The notes below the pieces were generated by a model, which was given only the letters and a program-made list of their open reading frames with translations, ran no database searches and had not been told where the DNA came from. This document shows, in pieces, positions 20,251 to 37,124 of a stretch of 64,000 nucleotides of DNA. The first letter of the stretch is position 1. Every line of letters starts with the position of its first letter. The translations under genes and the position numbers were made by a program. This DNA comes from Sulfurimonas sp. HSL3-2 (GTDB lineage: Bacteria; Campylobacterota; Campylobacteria; Campylobacterales; Sulfurimonadaceae), in the NCBI RefSeq assembly GCF_039645965.1, contig NZ_CP147917.1, positions 1,302,001 to 1,366,000 of the forward strand, written 5' to 3'.

Positions 20251-20296
20251 TTTTTGTCCTTAGAATTATGTTTGCGGGCCGTCCCGATTATTTACA

Positions 20297-20318
20297 TCTC
20301 ACAAGTCGTCTTGTGAGA
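20297..20318 (-). other. Intercistronic hairpin upstream of the carboxylase gene
   Basis: A perfect 9-bp stem (TCTCACAAG / CTTGTGAGA) with a four-base loop sits in the 93-bp gap between the MBL-fold gene and the carboxylase, the largest gap within the operon. On the transcribed minus strand it is not followed by a T-run, so it is unlikely to be a strong terminator. It may be an mRNA processing or stabilising element that sets carboxylase expression apart from the upstream genes. Confidence 0.45.
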
Positions 20319-25210: not shown

Positions 25211-25360
25211 AATTAAAACACGGCAAGAGGTTGTAACCTCCCGGGCTTTTATCCCTCCGTGTAACCTCCTATTCAAGAGGTCGACAACTCTCGGACCTGA
25301 CACAGAATATTCTGCCGGAACCCTAGTCGTCTGTTATTGCATTAGAGGTCTTTCAACCTC
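25211..25360 (-). promoter_or_regulatory. Guanidine-I (ykkC) riboswitch with transcription attenuator
   Basis: The minus-strand leader contains the conserved blocks of the ykkC class in order: CTAGGGTTCCG, GGTCCGAGAG, then ACACGG(A)GGGATAAAAGCCCGGGAG in two adjoining parts. P1 is closed by GAGGTTG (25360-25354) with CAACCTC (25233-25227). The aptamer block ACACGG (25262-25257) is also complementary to CCGTGT (25223-25218), which runs straight into TTTT. This gives a terminator that forms only when ACACGG is not held in the aptamer. Guanidine binding should thus allow transcription of the importer and degradation operon. The binding-protein gene starts 22 bases further on. Confidence 0.95.
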
Positions 25361-25381: not shown

Positions 25382-25435
25382 ATTGTACCAGAAGAAATTA
25401 TCTCGATAATTAAGTTACTGATTAAATTTTAATCA
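25382..25435 (-). promoter_or_regulatory. Promoter and nitrogen-operator palindrome of the guanidine operon
   Basis: A perfect 17-bp palindrome TGATTAAATTTTAATCA lies at 25419-25435 (centre 25427). A -10 box TACAAT on the minus strand begins exactly 40 bases further on (25387-25382). Transcription would start near 25375, about 15 bases before the riboswitch aptamer. The same palindrome and spacing recur at six other promoters in the window. With the -10 at its usual place the operator is centred near -52, which suits an activator; the regulator is unknown. Confidence 0.75.
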
Positions 25436-25556: not shown

Positions 25557-26825
25557 TTAGAAGTTGTAAGTAAGATATACTTGAAATGAAGTCAGATCTT
25601 CATTATCTCCAATTGATGTTCCACCTTTATAACCGAATGAATCATGAATAAGAGCAACAGTAGAATCCAATGGGCCAAAAGACTTACTTGCAGTAAATGC
25701 AATTTCATCTACACTGTTATTAGTCCCTGCTGTGATCCCTTTAGGAGCAATATCACATGTATAGTATCCTAAGAAAAAGTCAATATCAGCAAGAGTTGTC
25801 TCTGCAGAAACAGCGAGTGTATCAGCACCTGTTTGGCTTACAGTACCGTACCACCACCACATCTCAGTATAAAGTTGAGACGCAGCACCTGCTGCCTGAC
25901 CACGTGTTGCCAAGTTTGCAACGCCAAGTGTTCCTTCATCGTCTACAGAAGAGTATGCAACTTTAAGTGTTCCGACATCTTTCATCGAATAACCAAGCAT
26001 AACGCCATAAGCAGAATCATTTTTAGCACCAGTTGCATCAGAGTCAATATTTACATATTGTGCACCGGCAAGAACACCGTCCATATCTAAATCAGCTTGT
26101 AGCCAATATGCTTTTGCAACACGAGTTACATCGTAGTACCATGCTTTTGCCGTTAACGGTGCAAAAGAGTTATTGATCACACCTACTGCATACGCACCAT
26201 CTGTTGCGAATGTATTGAATTTTCCATTGACAGAAGTAACATTTCCGATATTAAGACTGCTATTGACATCATCACCTGTGCCGTTTGATGTACCGATCCA
26301 TGCACCGATTACTTGAGTATCAGGAATATCTTCGTTTATTACTACTGCTGCTTCAAAAGTATTTGTAGTAATATTCCATGTCTCAGTAAATGCAAGTGGC
26401 GTATCAAGTGATTGACGTCCTACTTTTGCAGTAGTCTTACCGAAAGTTCCTGCGATCCATGCTTCAGAGAAAAATGATGCATCCTCTACTTGAGCACCAT
26501 AAGAACTACCATTAGCAGTTGCAGTGTGAGCACCAGACCATACACCAGATACAAGGTTGTTTTCTAAGCCAAGTGTAGAAACTCCCTGAAATGTTGCACC
26601 GGCAGAAACACCTTCTGTAAGATCAGCTGTTGCCCCTAGAGTTAATCCTGCATCAGCATAACTTGCATCTTTATGGAACATATCCGCATTTGATACACCT
26701 TTAGTATTTACAGCATCACTACCATAAAAAAGACTTGCCGTCCCGTTTACTTTTACATTATCGATAGCATATACATTTGCCCCTAATAGTAGCGCTGCCG
26801 CCAAACTCATTTTTGCTAATTTCAT
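25557..26825 (-). CDS. Campylobacterota-type outer-membrane porin under guanidine riboswitch control
   Basis: A 422-residue protein with a signal peptide (AKMSLAAALLLGANVYA) and a long series of alternating-hydrophobic beta strands ending in VYLTYNF, a C-terminal aromatic typical of outer-membrane barrels. It resembles the Opr-type major porins of Sulfurimonas-like bacteria. Its mRNA leader holds a complete guanidine-I riboswitch with a terminator, so the porin should be made only when guanidine is present. An AGGAG lies seven bases before the ATG. A role in letting guanidinium cross the outer membrane is a strong inference, not shown by the protein itself. Confidence 0.87.
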   Translation of the reverse strand: MKLAKMSLAAALLLGANVYAIDNVKVNGTASLFYGSDAVNTKGVSNADMFHKDASYADAGLTLGATADLTEGVSAGATFQGVSTLGLENNLVSGVWSGAHTATANGSSYGAQVEDASFFSEAWIAGTFGKTTAKVGRQSLDTPLAFTETWNITTNTFEAAVVINEDIPDTQVIGAWIGTSNGTGDDVNSSLNIGNVTSVNGKFNTFATDGAYAVGVINNSFAPLTAKAWYYDVTRVAKAYWLQADLDMDGVLAGAQYVNIDSDATGAKNDSAYGVMLGYSMKDVGTLKVAYSSVDDEGTLGVANLATRGQAAGAASQLYTEMWWWYGTVSQTGADTLAVSAETTLADIDFFLGYYTCDIAPKGITAGTNNSVDEIAFTASKSFGPLDSTVALIHDSFGYKGGTSIGDNEDLTSFQVYLTYNF

Positions 26826-26850
26826 ACTGTCTCCTGGACTAAATTAATTT

Positions 26851-26994
26851 TAAAACACGGCAAGAGGTTTTTAGTCTCCCGGGCTTTTATCCCTCCGTGT
26901 AACCTTTTATTTAAGGTCGATAACTCTCGGTCCAGTCACAAATACTTTGCCGGAACCCTAGTAATCTATTAATGTTATAAGATTTTACAACCTC
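26851..26994 (-). promoter_or_regulatory. Second guanidine-I (ykkC) riboswitch with attenuator, upstream of the porin
   Basis: The conserved blocks seen in the first riboswitch recur on the minus strand: CTAGGGTTCCGGC, GGACCGAGAG and ACACGGAGGGATAAAAGCCC followed by GGGAG. P1 is formed by GAGGTT (26994-26989) with AACCTC (26869-26864). ACACGG (26900-26895) can instead pair with CCGTGT (26860-26855), followed by TTTT, giving a terminator. The mechanism is the same as at the neighbouring operon but the spacer helices differ in sequence, so this is not a very recent copy. The porin ATG is 26 bases downstream. Confidence 0.95.
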
Positions 26995-27022
26995 ATAGCT
27001 CAAGTCATGTTTTATCACAAGG

Positions 27023-27076
27023 ATTATATATAACGTAGATGATAAATAATACATATTAATGATTAAATTTTAATCA
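27023..27076 (-). promoter_or_regulatory. Promoter and nitrogen-operator palindrome of the guanidine porin
   Basis: The perfect palindrome TGATTAAATTTTAATCA occurs at 27060-27076 (centre 27068). The minus-strand -10 TATAAT begins 40 bases further on (27028-27023). The predicted transcription start near 27016 puts the riboswitch P1 about 22 bases into the RNA. Identical operator spacing to the guanidine operon promoter implies shared control by one activator. Confidence 0.75.
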
Positions 27077-27220
27077 TATTGTAAATTTATATCTAAATTT
27101 AAAATTTAACAGGATTTACAATAAACTATATATAGTAAATAAGAAGTTTAGATAAATGAAAGGTACAGTTGTTTGTCTACAACGCAATCTTTATAGGATA
27201 ACGCTGTAGGTAAGGAGATG

Positions 27221-27293
27221 AAAAAGGGGCTTACCTGACTGACATAACAGTGCCCTATTGAATGATAACGAAAAGTAGTGTTGCATTAACACG
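27221..27293 (-). ncRNA. Candidate nitrogen-regulated small RNA
   Basis: An orphan operator (27337-27353) with a CATAAT -10 box (27305-27300) points into a gene-free stretch on the minus strand. The RNA starting near 27293 would open with a small hairpin (GTGTT/AACAC, 27292-27278). A ~22-base unstructured A/U-rich segment follows. It would end in a GGGC...GCCC hairpin (27255-27252 with 27230-27227) containing an inner ACTG/CAGT stem, then CTTTTT at 27226-27221. This hairpin-seed-terminator layout is typical of a trans-acting sRNA of ~73 nt. No homology to a known RNA is recognised. A competing GGTAAG/CTTACC pairing overlaps the end. Confidence 0.45.
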
Positions 27294-27299
27294 AAAAAA

Positions 27300-27353
27300 A
27301 TTATGACATTTTTTTTAAAAATAGCCGCAAGCATAATGATTAAATTTTAATCA
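27300..27353 (-). promoter_or_regulatory. Orphan nitrogen-operator palindrome with -10 box
   Basis: A third perfect copy of TGATTAAATTTTAATCA lies at 27337-27353 (centre 27345). A CATAAT box on the minus strand begins exactly 40 bases away (27305-27300). No protein gene follows on that strand until the porin riboswitch, so this promoter appears to drive the candidate sRNA. A plus-strand TACAAT at 27382 is 37 bases from the centre and would give a transcript antisense to the kinase gene. Confidence 0.65.
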
Positions 27354-27472
27354 ATTTTATATTTATAATGCTTATTCTTAATACAATCAAGTATATTGGT
27401 GAAATAACGTATAATAGAACAGTAAATGATTTAAAGAAGTGGGAGTGAAAGTATTATCGTATTATTATCTGT

Positions 27473-29110
27473 CTAATCAAGATTATAGTATATGATCAGG
27501 ATTATATTTAACAAAAACATAACAGTAAAAGCAGTTCTATAAAAGAGTAACGGAGAACGTTCTATAATAGAACTGTTTTTTGGAAAGAAAGGCTTAACAT
27601 TTTGAGGGAACTGCAGTTCATACATCATCTCGGAATAATGCTGATATCTTCTCTCAGGCTCTATAGCGATAGCACGAAGTACAACACTGTCAAGCCAAGC
27701 CGGAATATTTTTATTGTAAATACTCGGTTTTTTGGCTTCTTTAAATATCGGATTTGAGAAAGGTTCTATCTCTCCATAGGGATATTTTTTTGTCAATGCC
27801 ATATAAAGTGTTACCCCTATAGCAAAAATCTCCGTTGTCTCACTTATAGCCTCATCTTTGAATCTTTGAGGAGAAAGATAGCTCGGCGTTCCGGCTCTTG
27901 AACTTGTCGAAAATATCTCAGTGATACTTCCGAAATCTATCATCTGAAAGCCCAGCTCACTGCCGTTTACTACGACCATGATGTTTTCAGGCTTGATATC
28001 ACCGTGTACAAGATCATATTTTAAAAGATACTGTGACATATCTAAAAGCATCTTTGAAAGCTTTATGGCATCGTCTATACTGATATTTTTTACGGAGATA
28101 TGGCTTTTAAGGTCTTCACCCTCAAGAAACTGCATTATATAGTAGCGGTATGTTCTCTTTTTTGGGATGACCGCTTTAGGAAAAAACTCCGATCGTAACC
28201 TCTTTGCATTCCACGCTTCCTTTACAAAAAGATCTAAAAACATCTCGTTATCGACAGCCTCAAGAGGAGGAAACTTTATGACATACTGTTTGGATTTTTT
28301 TGAACATATCCAAGTTCTGTCGTTTTGGATAAGAGACCTCTCTAATATATATCCGTCTATATCCTGACCTTTTTTCAGACTTTGCGGGATCAAAAGCTCC
28401 TGCTGTTTTAGTATCTCAAACTCATCTGCTTGTATTATGTCCAAGACTACGGCTGTCGTATCATCGGGAAGATGGTGCTGAGTGATCTTGCTCGCCTTTT
28501 TTACCAGACCGTGTGCACCAAATAGTATGCCGCTTTCCAAGCGGCTTGTCTCCATTATATTATAAAGGCCGTCACTGCACAACAGTATCTTGTCATCTTC
28601 TTGAATGATGTTCTCAAAATAGTAAGGTTCTGCCTCCTCTTCTATGCCTATCGCTTTTGTAAGTACATTTTCATACCCTTTTTCCTGCATAACATGGTCT
28701 TGTGAAAGCTGATTGATGCGCTTGTCCCGGTAAAGATAAATACGGCTGTCGCCTACATTGGCTCCATAGAGACGGTTTCCCTCTATGACCACTAAAGCCA
28801 GAGTCGTGACAAGTTCCGGGCGTTCATACTGGATGATCGATTCTTTATAAAGGATGGAATTGATGGATTTTATAAATGTAATGATAGATTTTTCGATGCT
28901 CCAGCTCTTTGGACGCATCTTGAAGTTGTTTATGAGATAGGAAGTGACCCTTGAAGCAGCCTGAGCTCCTTCTGCGGCACTTCCTACTCCGTCACAGACG
29001 ATCGCTACAGTAAGATCGCCTATGGTCTTTATATCATAAAAGTCATCACCGACGAGTTCTTTACCTTTAGCAAGTGTAAATCCTGAACTTTTTATGTTGG
29101 TCGATGACAT
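27473..29110 (-). CDS. Bifunctional PP2C phosphatase / Ser-Thr kinase fusion
   Basis: A 545-residue protein. Residues ~10-225 form a PP2C phosphatase with metal-site motifs VCDGVGSAAEG, GDSRIY, LLCSDGLYN and PDDTTAVV. Residues ~250-510 form a protein kinase with YVIKFPP (ATP lysine), LVHGDIKPENIM (catalytic loop, HGD instead of HRD), MIDFGS (metal aspartate) and GTPSYLSPQ. The glycine-rich loop is poor. A C-terminal hydrophobic helix (~520-541) anchors it to the membrane. Similar fusions recur beside assimilatory nitrate transporters in other proteobacteria. It lies 13 bp after the NarK-type gene, so it may adjust nitrate transport by phosphorylation; its target is unknown. Confidence 0.88.
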   Translation of the reverse strand: MSSTNIKSSGFTLAKGKELVGDDFYDIKTIGDLTVAIVCDGVGSAAEGAQAASRVTSYLINNFKMRPKSWSIEKSIITFIKSINSILYKESIIQYERPELVTTLALVVIEGNRLYGANVGDSRIYLYRDKRINQLSQDHVMQEKGYENVLTKAIGIEEEAEPYYFENIIQEDDKILLCSDGLYNIMETSRLESGILFGAHGLVKKASKITQHHLPDDTTAVVLDIIQADEFEILKQQELLIPQSLKKGQDIDGYILERSLIQNDRTWICSKKSKQYVIKFPPLEAVDNEMFLDLFVKEAWNAKRLRSEFFPKAVIPKKRTYRYYIMQFLEGEDLKSHISVKNISIDDAIKLSKMLLDMSQYLLKYDLVHGDIKPENIMVVVNGSELGFQMIDFGSITEIFSTSSRAGTPSYLSPQRFKDEAISETTEIFAIGVTLYMALTKKYPYGEIEPFSNPIFKEAKKPSIYNKNIPAWLDSVVLRAIAIEPERRYQHYSEMMYELQFPQNVKPFFPKNSSIIERSPLLFYRTAFTVMFLLNIILIIYYNLD

Positions 29111-30453: not shown

Positions 30454-30545
30454 ATTATAACACTATAAAAACCCTAAATTACCCAGTCTATTGTTTAAAA
30501 TTTATACAACTTAATATTAATTTTACATTAAATTGATGTTACAAT
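30454..30545. promoter_or_regulatory. Divergent nitrogen-controlled promoters of the nitrate transporter and siroheme/nitrite reductase operons
   Basis: A near-perfect palindrome TGTTTAAAATTTATACA (30492-30508, centre 30500) lies in the 175-bp divergent region. On the minus strand a TATAAT box begins 41 bases away (30459-30454) for the transporter. On the plus strand a TACAAT box begins 40 bases away (30540-30545) for siroheme synthase. One operator therefore sits at the same distance from two divergent promoters, the geometry also seen at 37079. Confidence 0.7.
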
Positions 30546-37034: not shown

Positions 37035-37124
37035 ATTGTAACATAATTAATGTAAAATTAAGAAATAAAATGATTAAAATTTAAACATATTTCCATAGTT
37101 ATCGCTATTGTTATCAGATACAAT
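37035..37124. promoter_or_regulatory. Divergent nitrogen-controlled promoters of nitrate reductase and porin
   Basis: A near-palindrome TGATTAAAATTTAAACA (37071-37087, centre 37079, one mismatch to symmetry) lies in the 175-bp divergent region. TACAAT boxes face outward on both sides: 37040-37035 on the minus strand (39 bases from the centre) and 37119-37124 on the plus strand (40 bases). The symmetrical layout copies that at 30500 and suggests one dimeric activator serving both genes. Confidence 0.7.

Follow-up and report, generated by a model that had tools for sequence, protein, structure and literature searches.

NsiR4 is transcribed from a regulator-driven intergenic promoter and stands under the control of NtcA. 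In cyanobacteria, it acts as a nitrogen-stress sRNA that represses gifA, and nitrogen-linked regulatory RNAs are also known in Pseudomonas and Methanosarcina (PMC9170634). A word search of the same review for Campylobacter, Helicobacter, and Epsilonproteobacteria returned nothing, and in a limited search of the open-licence literature, neither the operator discussed here nor nitrogen-regulated RNAs in Campylobacterota were found described. Noncoding RNAs (ncRNAs) of Campylobacter and Helicobacter are reported to be species-specific and linked to an unstable order of genes (PMC3847290). The locus under study lies in a 64-kb stretch of DNA (the window), and our comparisons point toward a nitrogen-regulon promoter at 27353-27300 that drives a noncoding, base-pairing RNA from ~27293 to at least ~27165, a reading to which we give a probability of roughly 0.6.

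At the orphan site, a perfect copy of the operator (TGATTAAAATTTAATCA, 27353-27337, minus strand) ends exactly 31 nt ahead of the minus-10 box CATAAT at 27305-27300, which faces the porin gene. The third perfect operator and the CATAAT box of the original prediction are therefore present, and the 40 bases given between them are obtained when one counts from the centre of the operator up to where the box starts; the strand, left unstated there, is the minus strand. Perfect operators occur three times in the window (25419-25435, 27060-27076, and 27337-27353) and four times in the genome, with the fourth preceding amtB outside the window. With up to three mismatches, 10 matches were observed in the window, compared to 0.9 expected. 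The 31-nt gap recurs at the operators of the porin, the substrate-binding protein, amtB, and the second porin.

The operator class extends far beyond this genome. Perfect copies were present in 33 of 120 genomes (own and relatives), with zero for the reversed pattern, and an operator and a loose box spaced by 31 nt occurred together in 133 of 228 family genomes, compared to ~3 hits in total for the reversed control. The distance to a TATAAT-like box, taken over 345 unique oriented operators, is most often 31 nt (116 sites, other gaps mostly in single digits), a peak whose height is inflated because the sites were partly retrieved with the 31-nt pattern itself; the perfect-operator set, retrieved without any spacing demand, obeys the same 30- to 32-nt rule. 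The genes behind the operator, named by reading ORF starts without a family search for each, are those for ammonium transporters (amtB), glutamine synthetase (glnA), and P-II (glnB), and furthermore genes for nitrate transport and reduction, small outer-membrane proteins, and guanidine-riboswitch operons. Since the gap peaks at 31 nt family-wide and the operator fronts nitrogen genes, the assignment of 27353-27300 (minus strand) as a promoter of the nitrogen-assimilation regulon is well supported by comparative genomics, and the comparison also speaks strongly for the nitrogen control that had been proposed for it (operator class, spacing, and genes fronted).

What distinguishes the orphan site is the distance to the next gene. 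It shares with its class the operator (a perfect match) and the 30- to 32-nt spacing to the minus-10 box (31 nt, CATAAT), but it lacks the start codon expected within ~20 to 60 nt of the box: among 163 promoters, the median from box to start is 31 nt, versus 474 nt here. Leaders longer than 120 nt were found at guanidine-type promoters (~160 to 197 nt), at the orphan site, where the porin is 474 nt away, and at three sites in another genus; a few additional cases probably represent the palindrome read from its reverse face, next to a box that arose by chance. Apart from the guanidine-riboswitch leaders, a near gene is absent among the 163 promoters only at the orphan site and at these three sites. 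In a set of 80 loci from that other genus, the start codon is almost always no more than ~110 nt away, and the single long leader is of the guanidine type.

The only short open frame behind the box starts at 27283, 16 nt downstream, and encodes 31 residues. A promoter for this short protein is largely refuted and very improbable: in G014, a relative from the same genus, two indels break the frame and the changes show no codon-position bias, and no Shine-Dalgarno sequence precedes the ORF. Promoters of this class very rarely have their start codon far away, and the sole short ORF is disrupted in G014; the product of the promoter is therefore best read as noncoding.

The claim that the site points to no protein gene is correct for its vicinity, but an outer-membrane porin-like gene (25557-26825, minus strand) is the next one downstream on the same strand, beginning 474 nt past the box. 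Between them lies the porin's own perfect operator (27060-27076, minus strand), 31 nt from the box TATAAT at 27028-27023, and the porin leader contains a guanidine-I riboswitch (26874-26972, minus strand). The orphan operator could be an additional tandem promoter upstream of the porin/guanidine operon; read-through would then pass 27221 and the porin operator and enter the guanidine-I leader, over a region that has no RNA function of its own. Identical strand and direction and the 277 bp between the two operators agree with this arrangement, whereas the standard promoter of the porin itself speaks against it.

Several further features surround the site. The guanidine/urea-carboxylase cluster carries two guanidine-I riboswitches (25236-25337 and 26874-26972) and one guanidine-II riboswitch (20275-20317), and both guanidine-I riboswitches are also located behind a nitrogen operator, a double control by nitrogen and guanidine. 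Imperfect operators lie at 37071-37087, between a nitrate-reductase-like gene and the second porin, and at 30492-30508, between an MFS transporter and siroheme/nitrite genes; both have boxes at 30 to 32 nt in both directions. A second motif, TTAATTTTACATTAA, was seen in the operator-box spacer of nitrate- and nitrite-reductase promoters only (L088, L089, L096, L097, and window 30492-30545) and may mark where a second, nitrate-linked regulator binds. An MFS transporter is adjoined by a PP2C phosphatase-Ser/Thr kinase fusion (27473-29110, minus strand), which is matched in 160 of the 228 family genomes and is itself found behind an operator in G132 (L226).

The RNA had been proposed to span 73 nt (27221-27293, minus strand), with its start deduced from the box and a 3' end that is doubtful. 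The hairpins described for it are indeed the minimum-energy fold of 27293-27221, namely, a predicted 5' hairpin (GTGTT..AACAC, 27278-27292, minus strand), whose left arm lies beyond the end of the G014 contig, and the claimed terminator stem (27227-27255, minus strand), which comprises GGGC/GCCC, ACTG/CAGT, and a bulge of 7 nt and is followed by CTTTTT. However, the fold as a whole is no better than that of shuffled sequences (z = −0.70; 48 of 200 shuffles as good), and the claimed terminator stem reaches −8.5 kcal/mol with a z of −0.92. A consensus terminator scan of 26800-27600 passed none, and no good terminator was found between the orphan operator and the porin operator. In G014, the stem is the least conserved part of its surroundings (19/29); it has lost one inner and two outer pairs, two outer pairs are changed on both sides, and no stem is predicted at this position. 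A terminator at 27221 that ends a 73-nt sRNA is hence not supported, and since no convincing terminator is conserved, transcription from the orphan promoter could read through into the porin gene, as the tandem arrangement would require. An Rfam covariance search of 26850-27480 (4227 models, E up to 5) returned guanidine-I alone; the RNA candidate at the orphan site belongs to no RNA family tested.

The sole homologue of the candidate, with ~76% identity, is located on contig C13 of G014, which is the same sequence as JAHJGM010000009.1 from a marine biofilm MAG. The contig opens inside the RNA, with the promoter beyond its end, and is then syntenic into the same guanidine-I porin; the far side of the contig break was looked for but not found. 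Identity amounts to 91/119 in the block 27282-27164 (minus strand) and 52/87 in the next spacer (Fisher p = 0.014, with the block boundary chosen after the alignment was seen), and the constraint on the block is modest because fourfold sites of the porin are already 74% identical between the two genomes. Conservation continues past 27221 through a second hairpin, which speaks against an extent of exactly 73 nt and supports a longer RNA, to ~27165, that would include a CU-rich segment and the second hairpin. The CU-rich segment (CCTTTTTCATCTCCTTAC, 27210-27227, minus strand) is conserved at 14 of 18 positions and resembles an anti-Shine-Dalgarno stretch. The second hairpin (CTACAGCGT..GCGTTGTAG, 27177-27209, minus strand) has a z of ~−4.2 when folded alone, and its inner part folds in both species.

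The covariance search in related genomes, recommended along with the original prediction, matched the orphan-site RNA in two of 228 family genomes only, that of the window and G014, under stricter filters with which very diverged copies may be missed. A nucleotide search of the 228 genomes gave the operator and chance hits only; it scored few candidates per genome and missed even G014, and it was therefore not taken as proof of absence, with the covariance model used instead. Neither kinase-anchored synteny (29 relatives) nor porin-anchored synteny (21 loci) revealed a homologue beyond G014/L181, and a plasmid collection contained no match. A match in G018 (C43:16575) was rejected as a homologue, since it appears to sit within a coding region. 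The gene order at the orphan site is recent, because kinase relatives carry different sequence there, including G019, whose kinase is 83% identical. Together with the occurrence of the RNA in only 2 of 228 genomes, this agrees with a relic or young promoter without function, whose RNA is made but does nothing. We consider this quite improbable, since operator and spacing are perfect and without decay, and G014 retains the block and the inner part of the second hairpin while its spacer has diverged. The preferred reading of the product is instead a lineage-specific, nitrogen-controlled noncoding RNA, as judged from the sequence comparisons.

A structured RNA of ~190 nt is found behind the same operator at the three sites in the other genus (G097, L144:1237-1426, minus strand; G099, L145:899-1090, plus strand; G205, L166:1456-1646, minus strand), with an operator-to-box gap of 31 to 32 nt. 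In G097 and G099, the operator lies ~310 bp upstream of another copy, which serves the gene of an outer-membrane protein, a tandem as in the window; in G205, it stands alone, without a protein gene to serve, and an apparently convergent gene follows the RNA. A hairpin at the 5' end, a long stem with interruptions, a CU-rich stretch that stays unpaired (CCCCUCCUAAG), and a hairpin at the 3' end make up the RNA; the 3' hairpin varies in sequence by species and has a U-tract in G205. The RNA folds far more stably than shuffled sequences (z = −4.95 and −3.08) and has no Rfam match; its covariance model (R2) found it in those three genomes only and gave no match in the genome of the window. Because these sites precede one conserved, strongly folded RNA, recruitment of an sRNA into the nitrogen regulon has probably taken place elsewhere in the family, and this RNA is a stronger sRNA candidate than that of the window. 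With this precedent, in which the tandem layout encloses a structured RNA that in G205 occurs without a gene behind it, and with the standard promoter of the porin, a mere tandem promoter at the orphan site becomes less likely; that the block 27164-27282 is better conserved than the adjoining spacer also counts against it, and we regard it as unlikely overall. Tentatively, we suggest that a family regulon with its own palindromic operator recruits different lineage-specific sRNAs, one in this genus and, in another, the 190-nt RNA that is unrelated to it; non-homologous RNAs would thus have filled the sRNA slot of the regulon independently.

In our model of the orphan site, a presumed activator would bind TGATTAAAnTTTAATCA, centred ~52 bp upstream of the transcription start, and the noncoding RNA would start at ~27293 and extend at least to ~27165. 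Its parts would be the 5' hairpin, the CU-rich segment as a single strand, and the second hairpin, which is stable. We expect it to build up when nitrogen is short and to work by base-pairing, with the CU-rich segment pairing most likely with ribosome-binding sites. Target prediction with 49 window ORFs and amtB, also recommended at the outset, gave no convincing target. The best hit, at −30 kcal/mol, was at the end of an ABC ATPase gene (equalled by 1 of 600 shuffles), but it failed the conservation test, since the pairing is lost in G014; its 13-nt perfect match is ordinary for shuffled RNA, and the hit was rejected as a target.

If real, the RNA would add a layer of RNA-level control to the nitrogen regulon of free-living Campylobacterota. 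The shared operator and the fixed 31-nt spacing provide a simple genome-wide test for members of the regulon, coding or not, and the RNA shared by G097, G099, and G205 is a clean candidate for experiment.

How does the locus compare to the described systems? An analogue of the nitrogen-stress sRNAs had been proposed, and this analogy gains weight because three species of another genus carry an unrelated operator-driven RNA, although the exact 73-nt form is unsupported; if transcribed as predicted, the window RNA may work like a nitrogen-stress sRNA. Like NsiR4, it would be a small RNA tied to nitrogen control, but NsiR4 belongs to another phylum, uses another operator, and has a known target, and no sequence likeness was seen. 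With sRNA154 of Methanosarcina mazei, it would share the link to nitrogen regulation, which in that case includes control of glutamine synthetase; sRNA154 is archaeal, strongly conserved, and experimentally proven (PMC9170634), whereas the window RNA is a candidate. The RNA of G097, G099, and G205 resembles it in the operator, the 31 to 32 nt to the box, the CU-rich unpaired segment, and, in two of the three species, the tandem layout ahead of an outer-membrane protein gene, but differs in being ~190 nt long, strongly folded, closed by a 3' hairpin, and unrelated in sequence. For the ncRNAs of Campylobacter and Helicobacter, the evidence came from dRNA-seq or Northern blots, and in the part of the report considered, they are not described as nitrogen controlled, but they too are short, intergenic, limited to close relatives, and associated with unstable gene order, and the narrow spread of the window RNA fits this species-specific pattern (PMC3847290).
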